Assembly: GCA_016125215.1 (NCBI GenBank)
Contig: WGMF01000035.1
Coordinates: 1 to 64,000 of the forward strand
DNA from: Phycisphaera sp.
Lineage (GTDB): Bacteria; Planctomycetota; Phycisphaerae; Phycisphaerales; Phycisphaeraceae
DNA length: 64,000 nt
Reading direction: 5' to 3'
Shown here: one piece after another, positions 40,504 to 50,119 of the stretch
Position numbering within the stretch: the first letter of the stretch is position 1
Layout of the letters: each line of letters starts with the position of its first letter
Notes under the pieces: model-generated
Databases searched by the model: none
Told to the model about the DNA's origin: nothing
What the model saw: only the letters and a program-made list of their open reading frames with translations
Program-made: the position numbers and the translations under genes

Positions 40504-42420
40504 TTACTTGGTATTGAGCGGTTGGTTGAAATCAAGCACCTTCTTGCGATCACCCTTTGAGATCGTCACGACGCCGCTGTTGTAGTCGGCGTTGAGGAAC
40601 GGGCTGTCGAAGACCTTCTTCGGCGCGTAATCGACCGGTTTGCCGTTGATGGTGGGTGTCTGCTTGTAGCTTGTATCGAGCGTCAGTTCATCGCCATAGA
40701 TGCTCGTGTAACGCAACACCGGGCCTTCGAAGGAAATCTTGCTGGATTTCACCTTTGACTTGAATGCCTCGAAGCTCTCGATGTCGGTCTTGGCCATGAC
40801 TTCGAGGATCAGCGGCGCGTATTCGTCATCGGGGGTCAGGACGTACCCGGGCGGCGTGGTGAAATCGGGGCCGGCTTCCAACTTGCCGGCGAACGTCTTC
40901 TCTTCCAGCTTGAATCCACCACGTGTGACGCGCACAGCCGCATAGGCACCCGGCGCCTCGACAAAAGCAGAGTCTCCCTCGACCACCGGCTGAGGCAAAC
41001 CCCGCTTGGAGAACCAGGCCATCATCTCCGCGGCGCCAATGTTCGTCTCTAGCTTCTGTGTGATGAGCGTGCCCTTGCTCTGCACGGACCACTGGCCGTT
41101 GGAGTCCACGAGATTGTTCGCAGGACGCACGATGGGCACGATACGTGGGTCGCCTTCGCCGGCGAAGACCACGCCCTGCCAGCGGCTCTGCATGCTGATC
41201 GCGGACCAGTCTGACCACGGCCGCGCCTCGGTCATGGGTGTGCCGATGATGAAAGCCGGGTCGCAGTAGCTATAGAGCAGAATACCCCCGCCGTCGGTGC
41301 GCAGGGCGGTCACTTTGTAGGGCTTCTTGATGACGGACAACTTCAATCCCTGCGGGCGCTGGCGGATCTCGTACCGGCCACGCCCCTTGGCGTCGAGCGC
41401 GATATCCGCCACCACGGCGGGTGGGCGGTAGTCGCTCAGCACCGCGTTCACTTCGTAGCCGGACATTGGCGGCTGCTTGCCGATGCCGAAGTAGAACCAC
41501 GCCATCGGCGCGTTGCCACTCGTGCGTTTCTGCGAGTAGATGTTCGGACCTTTAATGCGTGCGCCGCCGCCACCCATCAGGCCATCGATCTGCGTCTCTG
41601 CCCAATAGGCGAAGTAAAGATCGAGCAACATTCCCGCGGCTTGGTGCACGCGAGGCTCGCCGAAGTCGTAGAAGTTGTACATCACCCGCATCAGGATGGA
41701 GTTGTACGAGTCGCTATGCATTTCGGCGCACGGGCTCTTGCGCGCCCGTTCCAGGCAGTACATCACGAAGAAGTCGTTCCACGCGCGGTAATGCTCAGCC
41801 GCGGTCCCGCCCTTATCGTATTTCAGGTCCTTGTATTCCGGGCGGTCCTTAGCCAGTTTTGCGAAGTGCCAGTTGAGCGTGAAGTCCATCGCGTCGTGGT
41901 TCTCCGAACCGTAGATTCGCCAGGTCTTGGACTTCTCGTATTCCGCCTTATCGAGCCAGGAGTATTCCTTGGCGTAGAGCCAGATCGGCTTGAGCACGAA
42001 CGCTTCGGTTTCGGGGGTGAGCAGGCCGGCGTGCCTGGTCCCGTGGGGGCCGTACATCTCGATCAGGCGCATCACGATGTCAGCGTGCCAGTGGAAGTTG
42101 GCGCCGCCTCCGATGGCCTCGGGGTGGTCCAGGTAAAATTGTGCATTTTCAATCAGCGCGGCGTTGGCCTCGTCCACTTTCTCGTTCAGATAGAAACAGC
42201 GGGCGGCGAATGCGACGATCGAATACGAGTAACCTCGCACATAGAGGCCCTGTTTAGCTTGCCGCACTAACGGCTTGCCGGCCTCGGCCTTGAAGTAGGC
42301 ATCCACACGCTGCTCAAAGCCCGCGATCACCTGCTCCGGGGTCGGGCCCGTCTGTTCAATAGTCTGGGCAAGGATCACCCCGGGTGAAAAAACCAACACT
42401 AGGGCAATGATCAATCGCAT
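40504..42420 (-). CDS. Secreted lyase-like protein, paralogue B
   Basis: A 638-aa exported protein (signal LIIALVLVFSPGVILAQ). Residues 25-330 are helical, with repeated aromatic-rich segments (YVRGYSYSIVAFAARCFYL, FHWHADIVMRLIEMYG) suggesting an alpha/alpha toroid; the C-terminal part is beta-rich (GDELTLDTSYKQTPTING). The conserved GSENHDAMDF and NWHF blocks have the Asn/His and Tyr-rich look of toroid polysaccharide lyase catalytic sites. It is closely similar end to end to the next upstream gene. Its ATG at 42420 lies inside that gene's last codons (10-nt overlap), so the two are probably translated together. Lyase activity on a uronic-acid polymer is inferred; no characterised family was recognised. 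Confidence 0.55.
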   Translation of the reverse strand: MRLIIALVLVFSPGVILAQTIEQTGPTPEQVIAGFEQRVDAYFKAEAGKPLVRQAKQGLYVRGYSYSIVAFAARCFYLNEKVDEANAALIENAQFYLDHPEAIGGGANFHWHADIVMRLIEMYGPHGTRHAGLLTPETEAFVLKPIWLYAKEYSWLDKAEYEKSKTWRIYGSENHDAMDFTLNWHFAKLAKDRPEYKDLKYDKGGTAAEHYRAWNDFFVMYCLERARKSPCAEMHSDSYNSILMRVMYNFYDFGEPRVHQAAGMLLDLYFAYWAETQIDGLMGGGGARIKGPNIYSQKRTSGNAPMAWFYFGIGKQPPMSGYEVNAVLSDYRPPAVVADIALDAKGRGRYEIRQRPQGLKLSVIKKPYKVTALRTDGGGILLYSYCDPAFIIGTPMTEARPWSDWSAISMQSRWQGVVFAGEGDPRIVPIVRPANNLVDSNGQWSVQSKGTLITQKLETNIGAAEMMAWFSKRGLPQPVVEGDSAFVEAPGAYAAVRVTRGGFKLEEKTFAGKLEAGPDFTTPPGYVLTPDDEYAPLILEVMAKTDIESFEAFKSKVKSSKISFEGPVLRYTSIYGDELTLDTSYKQTPTINGKPVDYAPKKVFDSPFLNADYNSGVVTISKGDRKKVLDFNQPLNTK

Positions 42421-44318
42421 TTTTGTTCCTTGTCTGTCTGATTAAAATCGAGAATCACCTTGCGGTCGCCCTTGCTGATCGTCACCAAGCCGCTGTTGTA
42501 GTCCGCGTTGAGGAACGGGCTCTCGAAGGCCTTGTCGCCGTTGTATTGGACTTCATCGCCGTTGATAGTCGGCGTCTTCTCGTAGCTCGTATCAAGAGTC
42601 AGCCGGTCACCGTAGATCGTCTGATAGGTCACGACCGAGCCGTTCATCTCCAGGATGCATTGCTTGACCTTCTTCTTGAAAGCGTCGAAGCTCTCGACGT
42701 CCGTTTTTGCCATCACCTCGAGGATCACGGGTGTGTAGGTATCCTCGGGCACGAGGATTTTGTGGGCCGGGAGATGGCCACCCGCTTCCAACGGATCGCT
42801 CAATGTATAGCCACCCTCTGCCAGACGGATCGCGACGTTTGCACCGGGGGCCTCGACAAACACCACGCCGTCCTCTTCGATCGGCTGCCCCAAGCCCTCC
42901 TGCGAGAGGTAAACGATCATCTGCCCATCGTGTCGGGTGAATTTGATCCGTTGCGTAATCAGGCTGCCTTTGGACTGTACAGACCAGAACGCGTTGAAGG
43001 CCACGCGGTCGTCCTTCGGGCGTACGATGGGGATGATGCGTGCGTTCGGGTTCCCGGTGAAGATTACGCCTTGCCACCGGTTCTGCGAACTGATCGCGGC
43101 CCAATCCACGTTGGGCAGGGCCTTGGTCATGGGTGTGCCGATGATGAAGGCCGGATCACAGAACGAGTAACGGAGAATCCCGCCGCCGTCGGTGTTCATG
43201 CGGTAGGGGTTTCTGTTCGTGGTCAAGCCCAGGCCCTGCGGGCGCTGGCGGACCTCGTAGCGCCCACGCCCCTGCACGTCGAGGGCGATGTCAGCCACGA
43301 CCGCCGGCGGACGGTAGCCGCTCAATGCCGCGTTTATGTCGTGCCCGCTGACATGCGGCGGCTTGCCGATGCCAAAGTAGTACCAGTCCAGCGGACGTGT
43401 GCGACCTTGCAGACCACCCAGAAAATACACCCGTGATTGACCGCCACCCGAGACCCCGTCGATCTGTTCCTGCGCCCAATAAGCGAAATACAGGTCCAGC
43501 AGCATCTTCGCCGACCGCCGCACTTCGGGTTCACCAAAGTCATAAAAATTGTAGACGCCTTTGATGAGCGTGCTGTTGTATCCGGCGCTCATCATCTCGA
43601 TGAACATGCCCTTGCGTGCACGTTCGAGGCAGTAGACCACAAAGTATTCGTTCCAGGCTTTGTAGTGTTCAGCGGGCGTGGCGCCGTTGTACTTGACATC
43701 GCGGTATTCCGGGTGGTTACGGGCGATGCGTGCAAAGTGCCAGCTGACCGTGAAATCCATCGCGTGATGGTTTTCTGACTCGTATACGTGCCACGTCTGG
43801 CTATCCTTGTATTCCTCGCGGGCAGGTGTGGAGAAACTTTTAGCGTACTGGAAGATCGGCTTGAGAACGATCCTTTCCGTCTCCTCGGTGAGCAGCCCCG
43901 CGTGGGCGGTCCCGTTTGAGCCATACATCTCGATGAAGCGCATCACGATCTCGGCGTGCCAGTGGAAGCTGTCGCGGTCGTTGATGTCCTTGAGGTTGTC
44001 GAGGTAGTGCTGCGCGTTCTCGACAAGCGCCGCGTTGGCCTCGTCGATCATCTCGTTGAGGTAGAAGCAGCGACCCGCGAAAGCCATCATGGAATAGGAA
44101 TACCCCCGCACGTAGTTCCCACGCCCCGGAGAGAGTGGCGGGTTCTTCTTTGCCCGCACCAGGGGTTTGCCGGCCTCGGCGCGGAACATCGCGTCCACCC
44201 GATCATCGAAACCCGCGACCACGCCCTCCGGAGTTGGAATACGAGTTGCCGGTTCCGCTGCCGAAATTGTGCGTGTCACCATCAAAACTCCTAGTGCTAA
44301 AAAAACTGCTGCACGCAT
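42411..44318 (-). CDS. Secreted lyase-like protein, paralogue A
   Basis: A 635-aa exported protein (signal MRAAVFLALGVLMVTRTISA). It aligns along its whole length with the downstream gene: FHWHAEIVMRFIEMYG, YESENHHAMDFTVSWHF, YRPPAVVADIALDVQGRGRY and the tail SPFLNADYNSGLVTISKGDR are near-identical in order. The helical N-terminal half and beta C-terminal half suggest a toroid plus sandwich polysaccharide lyase, but this is an inference. I chose ATG 44318, which begins the signal peptide; the open frame extends to a TTG at 44345. As first gene of an overlapping pair, its expression should set that of its partner. Differences around the metal- or substrate-binding segments may alter specificity. 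Confidence 0.55.
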   Translation of the reverse strand: MRAAVFLALGVLMVTRTISAAEPATRIPTPEGVVAGFDDRVDAMFRAEAGKPLVRAKKNPPLSPGRGNYVRGYSYSMMAFAGRCFYLNEMIDEANAALVENAQHYLDNLKDINDRDSFHWHAEIVMRFIEMYGSNGTAHAGLLTEETERIVLKPIFQYAKSFSTPAREEYKDSQTWHVYESENHHAMDFTVSWHFARIARNHPEYRDVKYNGATPAEHYKAWNEYFVVYCLERARKGMFIEMMSAGYNSTLIKGVYNFYDFGEPEVRRSAKMLLDLYFAYWAQEQIDGVSGGGQSRVYFLGGLQGRTRPLDWYYFGIGKPPHVSGHDINAALSGYRPPAVVADIALDVQGRGRYEVRQRPQGLGLTTNRNPYRMNTDGGGILRYSFCDPAFIIGTPMTKALPNVDWAAISSQNRWQGVIFTGNPNARIIPIVRPKDDRVAFNAFWSVQSKGSLITQRIKFTRHDGQMIVYLSQEGLGQPIEEDGVVFVEAPGANVAIRLAEGGYTLSDPLEAGGHLPAHKILVPEDTYTPVILEVMAKTDVESFDAFKKKVKQCILEMNGSVVTYQTIYGDRLTLDTSYEKTPTINGDEVQYNGDKAFESPFLNADYNSGLVTISKGDRKVILDFNQTDKEQKCD

Positions 44319-44440
44319 ATCGATTCCCACAGCCAGTGCTAACAAGTGTAAACAGCGTTGGTAACAAGTAACGCATGCAATGAACGCCCGGTTGATGATC
44401 TGTATTGCAAATCATGATCGCGTATGGGCCGGTTCGCGGG

Positions 44441-45562: not shown

Positions 45563-46375
45563 CTAGTAACGCACGTCGGGCAACACTCTCCATTCACCCG
45601 ACGACAGGATGTACGACGCGGGTTTATTCCTGCCGGGCACCTTCTTCAAACGTGGGTCATTGGGGTTGACGCCGTAGACCCGGAACCCCGAGCCGTCGGT
45701 CCGGGTGTAGTTCAGGTCCACGGAGCCGTCACCGGGAAGCGATCCCGGAAGCCGGTACCAATTCCTGATCCAGGTGGCATCGTCCGTGAGGATGACCGTC
45801 ATCGGCGCCCCGCTGTGATCGGGGTGCGCCATGTCCGTGTAGGGGTCCCGGCGTTGGAAATGGTCGGTCACGAGGATATCGAACTCATCGCCCTGGAATG
45901 TCATCCGGTCCGACAACCGCTCGAGTTTCTGCTCGCCCTTGCTGAATTGGTAGCCGAAAAAGAACGCCGTGGAGGTATGGATCTGAACGGAGTCAGCGTT
46001 CTTGAAGTCGAAGTTCTGATTGAACGGGCACTGCACGACCTCGTTGATGGGGATGTAGGGCGTGAGGTTCGGACGGTCGTCAAAACTGTAGGCCGGCTCA
46101 CTCGGGTCGGTGTATTTGAGAATGTTGGGCGCGGACCAACCTCTTTCAATAAACGGCATGGCACGTGTCGGCCACATGCCGTTGTGATCCGCGGCCCTCG
46201 TGGTCGCCGCGACAGCGACCATGCGTTGGTTACTCGAACACACCGTCAGCCTTGTACGGTATCGTGCCCCGTTGAGCGCGGGCAACAATACCGCCATCAG
46301 CAACGCGATGATGGCGATCACCACCAGGAGTTCGACCAGCGTAAAGGCCTCGTGCTTGGATTTGATCGGATTCAT
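45563..46375 (-). CDS. Prepilin-type N-terminal methylation protein
   Basis: A 270-aa protein with a type IV pilin-like leader: a short basic start, then FTLVELLVVIAIIALLMAVL directly followed by LPALNGARYRTR. The Phe after Ala is the processing site (prepilin peptidase cut before F). Planctomycetes carry many such proteins with a variable extracellular domain, often inside glycan-degradation loci. The C-terminal domain contains HNGMWPTRAMPF, VILTDDATWIRNWY and DLNYTRTDGSGFRVYG. The role is unknown; surface attachment or a pseudopilus subunit is possible. Confidence 0.85.
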   Translation of the reverse strand: MNPIKSKHEAFTLVELLVVIAIIALLMAVLLPALNGARYRTRLTVCSSNQRMVAVAATTRAADHNGMWPTRAMPFIERGWSAPNILKYTDPSEPAYSFDDRPNLTPYIPINEVVQCPFNQNFDFKNADSVQIHTSTAFFFGYQFSKGEQKLERLSDRMTFQGDEFDILVTDHFQRRDPYTDMAHPDHSGAPMTVILTDDATWIRNWYRLPGSLPGDGSVDLNYTRTDGSGFRVYGVNPNDPRLKKVPGRNKPASYILSSGEWRVLPDVRY

Positions 46376-46431
46376 GGTCGACGTATCCGATGAGATTGGG
46401 TCGATGAAATGGCGTGCCCTTAAATCGAAAC

Positions 46432-46461
46432 GGCGGCGCGGCTTTTATTTCCCGCGCCGCC
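46432..46461 (-). terminator. Hairpin downstream of PEP-CTERM gene A
   Basis: A 10-bp perfect stem (46432-46441 with 46452-46461, GGCGGCGCGG and its complement) encloses a 10-nt A/T-rich loop. On the minus strand it follows the PEP-CTERM gene ending at 46502 and is followed by GTTTCGATTT. The U-tract is weak, so function as terminator is likely but not certain. Confidence 0.6.
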
Positions 46462-46501
46462 GTGGAGGAGGAATCGATTTTCGTCGGCCGGGCCAACCGA
46501 T

Positions 46502-47350
46502 TCAGGCCTTGCGGCGCTTGATCATCAGCAGCCCGCCGAGGCCCAGCAGCGCCAGCGTGGCGGGTTCGGGGATGATACCGGTCACAACGACGCCCCCGAA
46601 ACGGGCCCTGTTGGGATTGGTGGCACTGGTGCTGGAAAAAACGTAGGACCATGTAATCGTGTCGTAATTCTGGGCGTCAGAAAAGTCATACCGGACAACC
46701 TTAGTTGCGTTAACAGGAGTGACACCTGCCAGTACGAGGGCAGCGGGATCGACGGTTGTTTGCCCGCTGCCACTCATCGACAGATCAATGGTCGTTGTCT
46801 CGGCTGACGAGTTGTTCAAGCCGAAGAAAAGATAGACAGAGCCCGAAGAAAGCGATGAGATATTGATGGTGCCTGTCACATTGTAAGGCCGCCCCATGTC
46901 CGTAAAATCGTAGTTGTCGAAGGCGCCGTTAGGCACGCTTGTGGACCAGATTCGCATCTGTGGAGTCGTGGAGGAATTGGTGCCGGTACCAGTTGCTGTA
47001 CCAATGATGCTGCTGCTGCCGCCCACAAGCTCGGTAATCGCCGTGGAACCACCCGTAGTGGTGTAGAAAGCGTAATCGATGATCGGGTTGTTGAAGCTTT
47101 GATCCAGCCCACCCGTATTCAAGCCCTCGTCGCCGTTGGCAACCCCATCACTCAAGCTATACCCTTCATGTCCGGGCGTCACGGAAACGCCGGCAATATT
47201 CGTCGCGCCCCCCGCTCCTTGTGATTCACCGATAGATTGAAGTGAGCCTTGAACTAGTGTCGCGGCCGGTGCCGAGCCGACCATCACGGCGAGTGCGAGA
47301 GCCGCGATCATGGTGGCGACGACGTGTGTACGTGTCGTGTTGATGGACAT
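46502..47350 (-). CDS. PEP-CTERM surface protein A
   Basis: A 282-aa protein with a signal peptide (VVATMIAALALAVMVGSAPA) and the C-terminal PEP-CTERM anchor (IPEPATLALLGLGGLLMIKR, then basic residues). The anchor is recognised and cut by an exosortase, leaving the protein on the outer surface or in an exopolysaccharide matrix. The interior is a Gly/Ser/Thr-rich beta fold (ITELVGGSSSIIGTATGTG) without a recognised domain. The ATG at 47350 has a near-perfect AGGAGG eight bases upstream; an upstream in-frame ATG at 47392 would add the 14-residue leader beginning MSEIIVNPQRR. It is copy A of a duplicated module. Confidence 0.87.
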   Translation of the reverse strand: MSINTTRTHVVATMIAALALAVMVGSAPAATLVQGSLQSIGESQGAGGATNIAGVSVTPGHEGYSLSDGVANGDEGLNTGGLDQSFNNPIIDYAFYTTTGGSTAITELVGGSSSIIGTATGTGTNSSTTPQMRIWSTSVPNGAFDNYDFTDMGRPYNVTGTINISSLSSGSVYLFFGLNNSSAETTTIDLSMSGSGQTTVDPAALVLAGVTPVNATKVVRYDFSDAQNYDTITWSYVFSSTSATNPNRARFGGVVVTGIIPEPATLALLGLGGLLMIKRRKA

Positions 47351-47682
47351 TCTTTTGATCCTCCTTTGGGGGTTGACAATGATTTCTGACATGTCTGGTC
47401 CTCCGCTGCTTTGGTCGCCAAGGGTGGGTGGGTAGCTCAGGATAGATAAGTAGTGAATGATGCGAGCCGTGTTTCGGACCTCCCTGTTGAGTGGGATTTA
47501 TACGCGTCTTTTCCTTTACCTACCGACGCACGAACTATGCACGAGACAGAATTGATGACATTTCCAAGGTTACCTAAGGATTTCGCACAGTCAATAGCGT
47601 TTTCCGCAAAGAACATGAAATTAGCGCAAAATAGTGGCAATCTAATCGATATGAACCGCTCAGAACGCATCTTCCTCGCCGC
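47351..47682. promoter_or_regulatory. Divergent promoter region, copy A (duplicate of 48672-49003)
   Basis: This stretch aligns with 48672-49003 almost from end to end. Shared runs include GGTAGCTCAGG, AATGATGCGAGCC, ACATGAAATTAGCGCAAAAT and GGCAATCTAATCGATATG against GGTAATCTAATCGATATG. In copy B the region sits between a PEP-CTERM gene and a XylR-type gene. In copy A the regulator side is only a remnant. Any operator kept in both copies should bind the regulator at 48974. Confidence 0.75.
47615..47682 (+). pseudogene. Truncated 5' end of XylR-type regulator gene
   Basis: ATG codons at 47615 and 47651 start MKLAQNSGNLIDM and MNRSERIFLA. These match MKLAQNGGNLIDM and MPRPKRIFRVA at the start of the regulator at 48974. 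Similarity stops at about 47682 and the sequence passes into the 3' flank of PEP-CTERM gene B (compare GGAGGAATCGATTTTCGTCGG, 20 of which reappear as GGAGGAATTGATTTTTGTCG). The fragment therefore marks the join of a tandem duplication rather than a gene. Confidence 0.75.
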
Positions 47683-47723
47683 TGCGGGGGAGGAATTGAT
47701 TTTTGTCGGCCGGGACAGGCGAT

Positions 47724-48671
47724 TCAGGCCTTGCGGCGCTTGATCATCATCAGGCCACCCAGGCCCAGCAGCGCCAGCGTGGCAGGCTCGGGGATGGGAA
47801 CGATGACAGCGTTCAGACTGCCCGAGGTGAAGTAGCCCTTCTTGCCGTTGCCGAAGTCATAGGCCGTGGCCGGACTGACGTATGCAGTGCTGCCGAAATT
47901 GATCGAGAAGGCACCGTCGATGAGCTTGTAGGTGCCCACGCTGGCGTTCGCCCAGTCCCAGCCGACAAGGTCTAGGAAGGTCAGATTGCCCAAGGTGAGC
48001 GAACCGCCTGTAATCCCGAGGATGCCCGTGCTGCTGACACCGAGGGTCGCGCCTGTGAGGTCGAGGTCGCCACCGGCGCTGATGGTCAGGCCGTTCCCGA
48101 GGCCGCCGTTGGTGGCGGTCTTGCGCCCGATCGTGCCACTGGTACCGACGGTTACCGCGCTGGAAAGCGAGCCGGTGACATAGAGCTTGCCGCCGGTGAC
48201 GGTCGTCGTGCCGGTGTAGGTGTTCGCGCCGGCGAGAACCAGCGTGCCAACGCCAGCTTTGTTCAACCCGTCGTTACCCGCGATCTTCGGGTTGATCGTC
48301 AGCGTCCGGTCGCCCTGTGTCACGTTAATAGTTGGTACTCCTGAGGTGACGTCGAGGGTCAAAACAGATCCCCCGCTGACGCCGACGGTCACGTCGTTGG
48401 ACGAGGTGGTTTTATCGGTAAAGGTGATGTTGCCGATCGTTCGACTGGTATCGAGCGTCACGGTCTTGTCGACAGTGATGTTCACGCCGATAAAGCCAGC
48501 GGTAGAGTCCACACCATCAGCTGGTGGATTCCAAACAGAGGTGCTTGACCAATTGGCCGTGGCCGCGGCAAAAGCGCCCCAATTAGCGCTGGCACCATAC
48601 GACGGCATCGCCGAGAGCGTAACGCCACACACAGCGGCGACGATGATAGTAGCTGTCTTGTTGCTGGACAT
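47724..48671 (-). CDS. PEP-CTERM surface protein B with autotransporter-type repeats
   Basis: A 315-aa protein with signal peptide (IIVAAVCGVTLSAMPSYGAS) and C-terminal PEP-CTERM (IPEPATLALLGLGGLMMIKR). The interior has a passenger-associated repeat, GVGTLVLAGANTYTGTTTV followed by TGGKLYVTGSL, and NWSSTSVWNPPADG near the start, as in beta-helix surface proteins. The ATG at 48671 has GGAGG about eight bases upstream; an upstream in-frame ATG would add a leader beginning MSAIIVNPQRRSK. Its ends match those of protein A closely while its interior does not, making it copy B of the duplicated module. It is divergent from the XylR-type gene. Confidence 0.88.
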   Translation of the reverse strand: MSSNKTATIIVAAVCGVTLSAMPSYGASANWGAFAAATANWSSTSVWNPPADGVDSTAGFIGVNITVDKTVTLDTSRTIGNITFTDKTTSSNDVTVGVSGGSVLTLDVTSGVPTINVTQGDRTLTINPKIAGNDGLNKAGVGTLVLAGANTYTGTTTVTGGKLYVTGSLSSAVTVGTSGTIGRKTATNGGLGNGLTISAGGDLDLTGATLGVSSTGILGITGGSLTLGNLTFLDLVGWDWANASVGTYKLIDGAFSINFGSTAYVSPATAYDFGNGKKGYFTSGSLNAVIVPIPEPATLALLGLGGLMMIKRRKA

Positions 48672-48973
48672 GACTTTTGACCTCCGTTGCGGGTTGACAA
48701 TGATTGCTGACATTTTCTGTCCTCCGTTGCTTTGGTCGCCTCGGGTGGACGGGTAGCTCAGGTTAGATAAGTATTGAATGATGCGAGCCATGTTTCTAAC
48801 CACCCAATTGAGCGGGATTTAAGCGCGTCGTTTTCCATCTTCAACCGACGCGAGATTTTTCAGTGGAACAGAATTTATGACACTTCGCAAAGATATCTAA
48901 GGATTCCGCCCAGTCAACAGCGTTTTACGCAAAGTACATGAAATTAGCGCAAAATGGTGGTAATCTAATCGAT
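48672..48973. promoter_or_regulatory. Divergent promoter region, copy B, between PEP-CTERM B and XylR-type gene
   Basis: About 300 bases serve both genes. It is A/T-richer than the surrounding coding DNA and conserved with 47351-47650. XylR-type regulators usually bind near their own divergent promoter, so an operator here is expected; the conserved TTAGCGCAAAAT and CTAATCGATATG segments next to the regulator start are candidates. No clear consensus promoter hexamers stand out. Confidence 0.6.
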
Positions 48974-50119
48974 ATGCCCCGCCCAAAACGCATCTTCCGC
49001 GTCGCCATGACATCCGACAATGCAGCGGCAAACATGCACAGCACCTTTCTCGGCGTGCTCAGATACAGCGAGCAGGCTGAAAACTGGGTTATGGTGGGGC
49101 AGCTTCAACAACCCATCCAGGCGTTCAAAGAAGTGGACCCGGGGTCTGTTGACGGTGTGGTCGGGTTCTTCCGTGGGCTGCATACGTTCGAGCATTTCAG
49201 GGAGGCGGGTGTCGCTACGGTGAATTTCTCGAACAGCATTGAGAACCTGGACATGCCACGCGTGGGCAACGATGACGAGGAGATCGGTCGTCTCGCGGCC
49301 CGGCACCTTCTGGAGCGTGGCTTTACGCAGTTCGGTTTTCTCGGTGACGACTTCCACTGGTACTCACGCCGGCGACTGGCGGGGTTCAGAGAAGTGATCG
49401 AAGAAGATTCTCGCCTGGGGCGTCAGGTCCATGTCATCAGCGTGAGCGGTCAGGGCGATATCGAACAACTGAGCCGGTGGCTCGGGCCGTTGCCCAAGCC
49501 CGTCGGCGTCATGGCGATCAACGACTGGCGGGCGATTACTCTCATTCAGTCTGCGCAACAACTGGGGCTGCGTGTGCCCGAGGACTTGGCGGTCGTGGGG
49601 GTCGACAACAACCCGTGGTTGACGCAACTGTCCTCTCCGAAACTCACCAGCATCGAGCCCGATTGGGAACGGGTCGGGTTCGAAGCTGCACGTATGCTCG
49701 ACGAACTCCTGCGGGGCGAAACCCCCGCCCCCAGTCCGTGGATCAAACCACTGGGCATGACGCAACGTGGGAGCACGGACATCCTGATCGCCGAAGACCC
49801 GGTGGTGGGTCGATCGATGGCGTACATCCAAAAAAACTACGCCAGGCCGATCACGGTAGAGCACTTGCTGGACGAGGTCGGGGTCTCTCGGCGAAAATTG
49901 GAATCACGATTGAAGGATGCGTTGGGAGTCACGCCGCACCAAGCGATCTGCCGGGCGCGGGTCGAGCGTGCCAAAGAAATGCTCGTGCAGACCGACTCGC
50001 CGATGGAACCTATCGCACGGAAGTGCGGGTTCGGCTCTTCCAACCAACTGCAGATCGTGTTCAAACGTCTGACCGGCATGACCCCGGGCCAGTACCGCCA
50101 GCGTTTCGGCAGTCGTTGA
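48974..50119 (+). CDS. XylR-type sugar-responsive regulator (LacI-like sensor, AraC output)
   Basis: A 381-aa protein with a periplasmic-binding-protein-like sensor (about 1-265) in the LacI/GalR style: RIFRVAMTSDNAAANMHSTF, GNDDEEIGRLAARHLLERGF, VGVMAINDWRAI and PEDLAVVGVDNNPW. The AraC helix-turn-helix pair (about 280-380) follows: ITVEHLLDEVGVSRRKLESR and PIARKCGFGSSNQLQIVFKR. XylR-family proteins bind a sugar and switch catabolic promoters. I used ATG 48974; an in-frame ATG at 48938 would add 12 residues. The gene faces the PEP-CTERM pair and probably controls it and perhaps the whole island. Confidence 0.9.
   Translation: MPRPKRIFRVAMTSDNAAANMHSTFLGVLRYSEQAENWVMVGQLQQPIQAFKEVDPGSVDGVVGFFRGLHTFEHFREAGVATVNFSNSIENLDMPRVGNDDEEIGRLAARHLLERGFTQFGFLGDDFHWYSRRRLAGFREVIEEDSRLGRQVHVISVSGQGDIEQLSRWLGPLPKPVGVMAINDWRAITLIQSAQQLGLRVPEDLAVVGVDNNPWLTQLSSPKLTSIEPDWERVGFEAARMLDELLRGETPAPSPWIKPLGMTQRGSTDILIAEDPVVGRSMAYIQKNYARPITVEHLLDEVGVSRRKLESRLKDALGVTPHQAICRARVERAKEMLVQTDSPMEPIARKCGFGSSNQLQIVFKRLTGMTPGQYRQRFGSR

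Follow-up and report, generated by a model that had tools for sequence, protein, structure and literature searches.

Tandemly duplicated PEP-CTERM genes with conserved ends and unlike passengers beside a XylR-like regulator in Phycisphaera

In Phycisphaera sp. two neighbouring PEP-CTERM genes, A and B, resemble each other at their ends and have unlike interiors. Both lie on the minus strand of the window (the whole 64,000-nucleotide stretch analysed, positions 1-64000 of contig C23 of genome G000, which comprises 4.04 Mb in 58 contigs) and adjoin a divergent regulator gene at 48977-50119 on the plus strand. A genuine tandem duplication comprises positions 46447-47682 and 47669-49005. The best explanation, with a probability of about 0.7, is that a divergent unit was duplicated in tandem and that the passenger of one copy was then replaced by recombination between conserved ends.

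The tandem duplication

The repeat consists of the direct-repeat blocks D1 (47315-47512 and 48636-48833, 81% identity), D2 (46447-46589 and 47669-47811, 84%) and D3 (47565-47682 and 48888-49005, 86%), which together make up one tandem unit that has a single junction. It extends from the 3′ flank of the PEP-CTERM gene through the divergent promoter to the first 12 or so codons of the XylR-like regulator. The intact regulator carries a periplasmic-binding-protein domain (Pfam PF13377, 1e-34) and an AraC-type HTH (PF12833, 1e-21), with an additional in-frame ATG at 48938 (plus strand). Facing it is gene B (47724-48671, minus strand), which encodes 315 amino acids (TIGR02595, TIGR02601, PF12951). 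The divergent intergenic regulatory region between the two (48672-48976; repeats D1 and D3) holds a promoter-like TTGACT-16-TATCTT on the minus strand (48917-48890), found by consensus scan only. Upstream of gene A (46502-47350, minus strand, 282 amino acids; TIGR02595, PF07589) the second copy of this region (47351-47646) leads into a truncated regulator stub of about 12 codons (47647-47682, plus strand). The stub directly abuts the 3′ flank of gene B (47674-47723), and the junction itself (47669-47682), where copies of D2 and D3 overlap, is part of both blocks. The counterpart flank of gene A lies at 46452-46501. A 12-bp terminator-like hairpin after A (46430-46463, minus strand; fold -39 kcal/mol, z -3.0) is absent after B, having been lost at the junction, and the left end of the duplication falls within an arm of this hairpin. 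Read from the boundary sequences, the parental ends have short imperfect homology of the CCGCGYCGCC type in common.

The initial annotation had called the shared ends of the two copies nearly identical. They are real repeats, but their noncoding flanks are only about 82% identical and their tails 92%. The shared upstream region is indeed duplicated, with 82% identity in the intergenic DNA, but it is more than a promoter: at its far end the divergent regulator gene begins, and the stub matches that start at 24 of 29 aligned nucleotides (83%). The signal-peptide codons are 73% identical; the match covers about 12 codons, stops inside the signal peptide and does not continue beyond. The PEP-CTERM tails (46505-46576 in A and 47727-47798 in B, both minus strand, TIGR02595) share 66 of 72 nucleotides including the stop, and five of the six differences are synonymous. 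Dozens of PEP-CTERM tails in the genome are 75-88% identical in DNA, so the likeness of the tails proves nothing by itself. The informative parts of the repeat are the regulator stub and the 3′ flank. The 3′ flanks match as annotated (82%), and for each the partner copy is the sole match genome-wide. The upstream block occurs in two copies and otherwise gives one 45-nt match, at a paralogous regulator start. On the coding strand GGAGGAAT belongs to the 3′ flank and is no ribosome site.

An upstream in-frame start on the minus strand is conserved in both genes, at 47392 in A and 48713 in B. With these ATGs (spans 46502-47392 and 47724-48713) each protein gains a 14-residue N-terminal extension, MSxIIVNPQRR..., and in both genes each of the two candidate starts has a purine-rich stretch of its own upstream.

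Passengers from different families

The interiors of A (residues 29-258, 46577-47266) and B (residues 28-291, 47799-48590) had been described as showing no obvious similarity, and base-by-base alignment bears this out. Identical positions make up 63% of the aligned columns and 63% in shuffled sequence, and Smith-Waterman scores are at chance level (protein P=0.30, DNA P=0.73). In a two-sequence BLASTP comparison the tail is the only significant match.

By their matches the two interiors stem from different protein families. The B passenger is an autotransporter-type beta-strand repeat (PATR; TIGR02601 8e-9, PF12951 2e-8) and matches the sequence of the Ssp autotransporter structure (8e7f, E 1e-6). 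Unlike an autotransporter, protein B ends in a PEP-CTERM tail, and a C-terminal barrel translocator domain was not found: Pfam shows PATR and PEP-CTERM only. The A passenger is without a Pfam family and has a homologue of 43% identity in G147, from another family of the same class, which is likewise a PEP-CTERM protein. AlphaFold models of A and B, built from two-sequence alignments, have pLDDT values of 42 and 44 and are too poor for fold claims. Foldseek with these low-confidence models gave no match at E below 0.001; a carbohydrate-binding-module-like hit, among others, for A and an autotransporter helix for B are hints only. Both proteins contain the PEP motif, hydrophobic segment and basic end, with TIGR02595 and PF07589 above cut-off. 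Their N-termini are hydrophobic leaders with A-x-A-like end sites, seen in the translations only, and the genome has four exosortase matches above cut-off (PF09721).

The divergence of the stub and the 3′ flank, about 18%, was taken as a gauge of the age of the duplication; the stub clock is rough, with only 29 aligned nucleotides. If these parts date the duplication, interiors at chance level cannot be explained by substitution alone. Drift is not a credible cause, as the initial annotation had argued, and one interior was most likely replaced. Leaders and tails are under functional constraint, and the passengers of surface proteins can evolve fast, so plain duplication might in principle leave such a pattern if relaxed or positive selection then let the interiors diverge rapidly. 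It would not account for interiors of different families at the level of shuffled sequence beside a useless stub and a 3′ flank that are still about 82-83% identical. A reverse control is given by the pair C29_13695/14556, whose interiors are 41% identical and whose ends are at background, which indicates that ends are not inherently slow. Simple duplication with fast divergence is strongly disfavoured and appears very improbable.

Replacement of a passenger between conserved ends is supported: the stub and the 3′ flank, which should be under little constraint, are still alike around unrelated interiors. An ancestral divergent unit, a XylR-like regulator facing a PEP-CTERM surface-protein gene, would have been duplicated in tandem, and one copy would later have exchanged its passenger by recombination with another PEP-CTERM gene. 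One breakpoint would lie in the signal-peptide region and the other at the PEP motif, as the initial annotation had predicted; the one on the 5′ side is blurred, as the signal peptides match over about 12 codons only. The outcome would be two surface proteins with common regulatory DNA, export start and exosortase tail and with different exposed domains. Against replacement stands the distance of the nearest B-interior relative in the genome (C56:465-1007), which is just 49% identical, and no donor for either passenger was found in the genome.

Ends and interiors in the same genome

About 85 PEP-CTERM genes were located in the genome and all pairs compared. Background identity across pairs is 49 +/- 4% in the leader region and 62 +/- 7% in the tail. 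In tight arrays, including some of related genome G020, the 5′ scores are inflated by the tail of the preceding gene, and base-by-base alignments were used instead. C12_21263/22024 was not counted despite its high 5′ score, which comes largely from such a tail, and the score of 348 for C14_113510/114190 is an overlap artefact.

In two pairs, A/B and C12_20409/21263, identity is 78-82% in upstream DNA and leaders and 90-93% in the tails, with no match of the interiors; for C12_20409/21263 the values are 80% for upstream DNA, 81% for the leader and 93% for the tail. C15_17999/18856 is a weaker case of alike ends (62%, 75% and 76%). The converse arrangement occurs in C14_112753/C24_6208, where 447 bp of interior are 89% identical in DNA (C14:112342-112788 and C24:6690-6244). 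The shared stretch runs from the signal-peptide cleavage region into the tail, and leaders and upstream DNA are unrelated. As judged from these alignments, it is the clearest exchange in the genome. None of the seven gene pairs with homologous interiors (E<1e-10) has similar 5′ ends. Two incomplete forms were also seen: a 60-aa ORF in which a signal peptide is fused directly to a PEP-CTERM tail with no passenger (C15:19698-19880, minus strand), and an orphan PEP-CTERM tail without a start of its own right behind a complete PEP-CTERM gene (C14:113495-113578).

Related genomes

The initial annotation had proposed a search of related genomes for other interiors between the same ends, and similar mosaics are present in G020, of a related genus. 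The neighbours 2452711/2453707 have near-identical leaders and tails and interiors of 35% protein identity. The neighbours 1345962/1346855 have spacer and tail in common and no interior similarity detectable by BLASTP; by eye both may be LamG-like, and the interiors may be distantly homologous. Between G020 1345962 and its G019 homologue the leader is 51% and the interior 67% identical, which suggests leader exchange; fast drift of the leader could also explain it. Two genes of a single G020 array have passengers whose homologues occur in G019, of the same genus, at the separate loci G019:C14:670613-671429 (L191) and G019:C14:331896-332942 (L187, L195), one beside a prepilin gene and with different-looking leaders. 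In G016, G017 and G019 dozens of sites per genome carry the DNA of the PEP-CTERM tail and of the prepilin start, frequently near one another, and the PEP-CTERM/prepilin pair looks widespread in their genus.

The mosaics in the same genome and in the related genus suggest a shuffling of PEP-CTERM interiors between conserved ends, and the proposed replacement of a passenger, supported by this decoupling of ends and interiors, would be one case of a process that acts across the PEP-CTERM gene pool of the bacterial family. Conversion of the ends could account for part of the same mosaic. In that case gene conversion would have made the ends of two adjacent, already unlike PEP-CTERM genes similar, and the interiors would never have shared an ancestor at this locus. 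The G020 neighbours with 35% identical interiors and far more similar ends fit this too, and tails are alike throughout the genome. Conversion requires pre-existing homology, would not alone make a truncated regulator stub upstream of A, and sits poorly with a contiguous tandem repeat that has just one junction. It is an unlikely origin for the pair, though the least unlikely of the rivals to passenger replacement.

Several arrays combine conserved ends with variable interiors, as in the cassette-based surface variation of Mycoplasma Vsa or Campylobacter fetus Sap, in which conserved ends likewise flank exchangeable interiors. Programmed switching of passengers at high frequency within a population would produce such arrays. 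Unlike in those systems, neither silent cassettes nor invertible DNA nor switching is seen here, and exchange is visible on an evolutionary time scale only. Nearly all the genes have a leader and tail of their own; beyond the ORF without a passenger and the orphan tail, the roughly 85 PEP-CTERM genes hold no reserve of partial cassettes, and the inverted repeats around the A/B locus are short and unremarkable. With no donor copy of A or B either, the proposed way to vary surface proteins is, in the sense of active switching, unsupported and can hardly be entertained. The locus looks like a case of evolutionary passenger shuffling within the known PEP-CTERM/exosortase class, not a demonstrated variation system.

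A recurrent regulator-PEP-CTERM-prepilin unit

Downstream of gene A lies a prepilin-like gene (45563-46375, minus strand, PF07963), a recurrent partner of such units. Among the regulator's 19 nearest relatives in the genome, 14 face a divergent PEP-CTERM gene at a distance of about 400 bp or less, and in 11 of these 14 units a prepilin-like gene follows 130-185 bp after the last PEP-CTERM gene. The recurrent unit consists of a XylR-like regulator, a divergent run of one to five PEP-CTERM genes and then a prepilin-like gene; it is found on contigs C7, C27, C33, C4, C15, C12, C3, C45, C55, C6 and C49 and in the window at 45563-50119. XylR-type regulators of sugar utilisation have the same combination of periplasmic-binding-protein domain and AraC HTH and are also divergent from their presumed target. 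They differ in that the presumed target here is a PEP-CTERM gene. No description of the regulator/PEP-CTERM or regulator/prepilin association was found in the literature searched, which was covered in part.

A single intact XylR-like gene is present, and the divergent regulatory DNA next to it is retained in both copies, which makes it plausible that A and B are both under one regulator. A k-mer search of the 14 divergent regions gave no convincing shared operator motif.

Further downstream of the A/B locus are an acetyl-esterase-like gene, a SASA esterase and two paralogues that look secreted; the window also holds a sulfatase and a glucuronate isomerase at other positions. The paralogues, of about 640 amino acids and without a Pfam match, are in tandem (40504-42420 and 42411-44345; 67% DNA identity over 1.7 kb). 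A third copy of the family (C7:120050-121527) adjoins the unit of the closest paralogue of the regulator. From this gene context, the likely role of the duplication would be to widen the range of adhesive or glycan-binding surface proteins linked to a single sugar-sensing regulator, that is, a putative sugar-responsive surface display of such domains. It is also conceivable, as a tentative extension, that in this bacterial family the end repeats (promoter/spacer with leader, and tail) are recombination handles that shuffle passengers among the sugar-responsive regulator-PEP-CTERM-prepilin units, as a genome-wide system of modular exchange.

Known systems and significance

Haft et al. 2006 (PMC1569441) report that PEP-CTERM proteins usually have no homology beyond the tail, describe the tail as a modular, lineage-expanded domain and note that tails of one genome resemble each other more closely than those of different genomes. 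Proteins A and B resemble those described for PEP-CTERM/exosortase (EpsH) sorting in having a putative signal peptide, a variable interior without recognised homology and a PEP tail. That account describes the tail as a module (PMC1569441), whereas here exchange of the interior between the leader with its upstream DNA and the tail can be followed base by base, and a duplicated regulatory region is present. No published DNA-level account of the exchange of PEP-CTERM interiors was found in the part of the literature covered by the search.

Many environmental bacteria have large numbers of PEP-CTERM proteins, few of which show recognisable homologues. If interiors exchange between conserved leaders and tails, the diversity of PEP-CTERM proteins becomes explicable, and the regulator-PEP-CTERM-prepilin units would offer a means to guess the sugar that each passenger serves.
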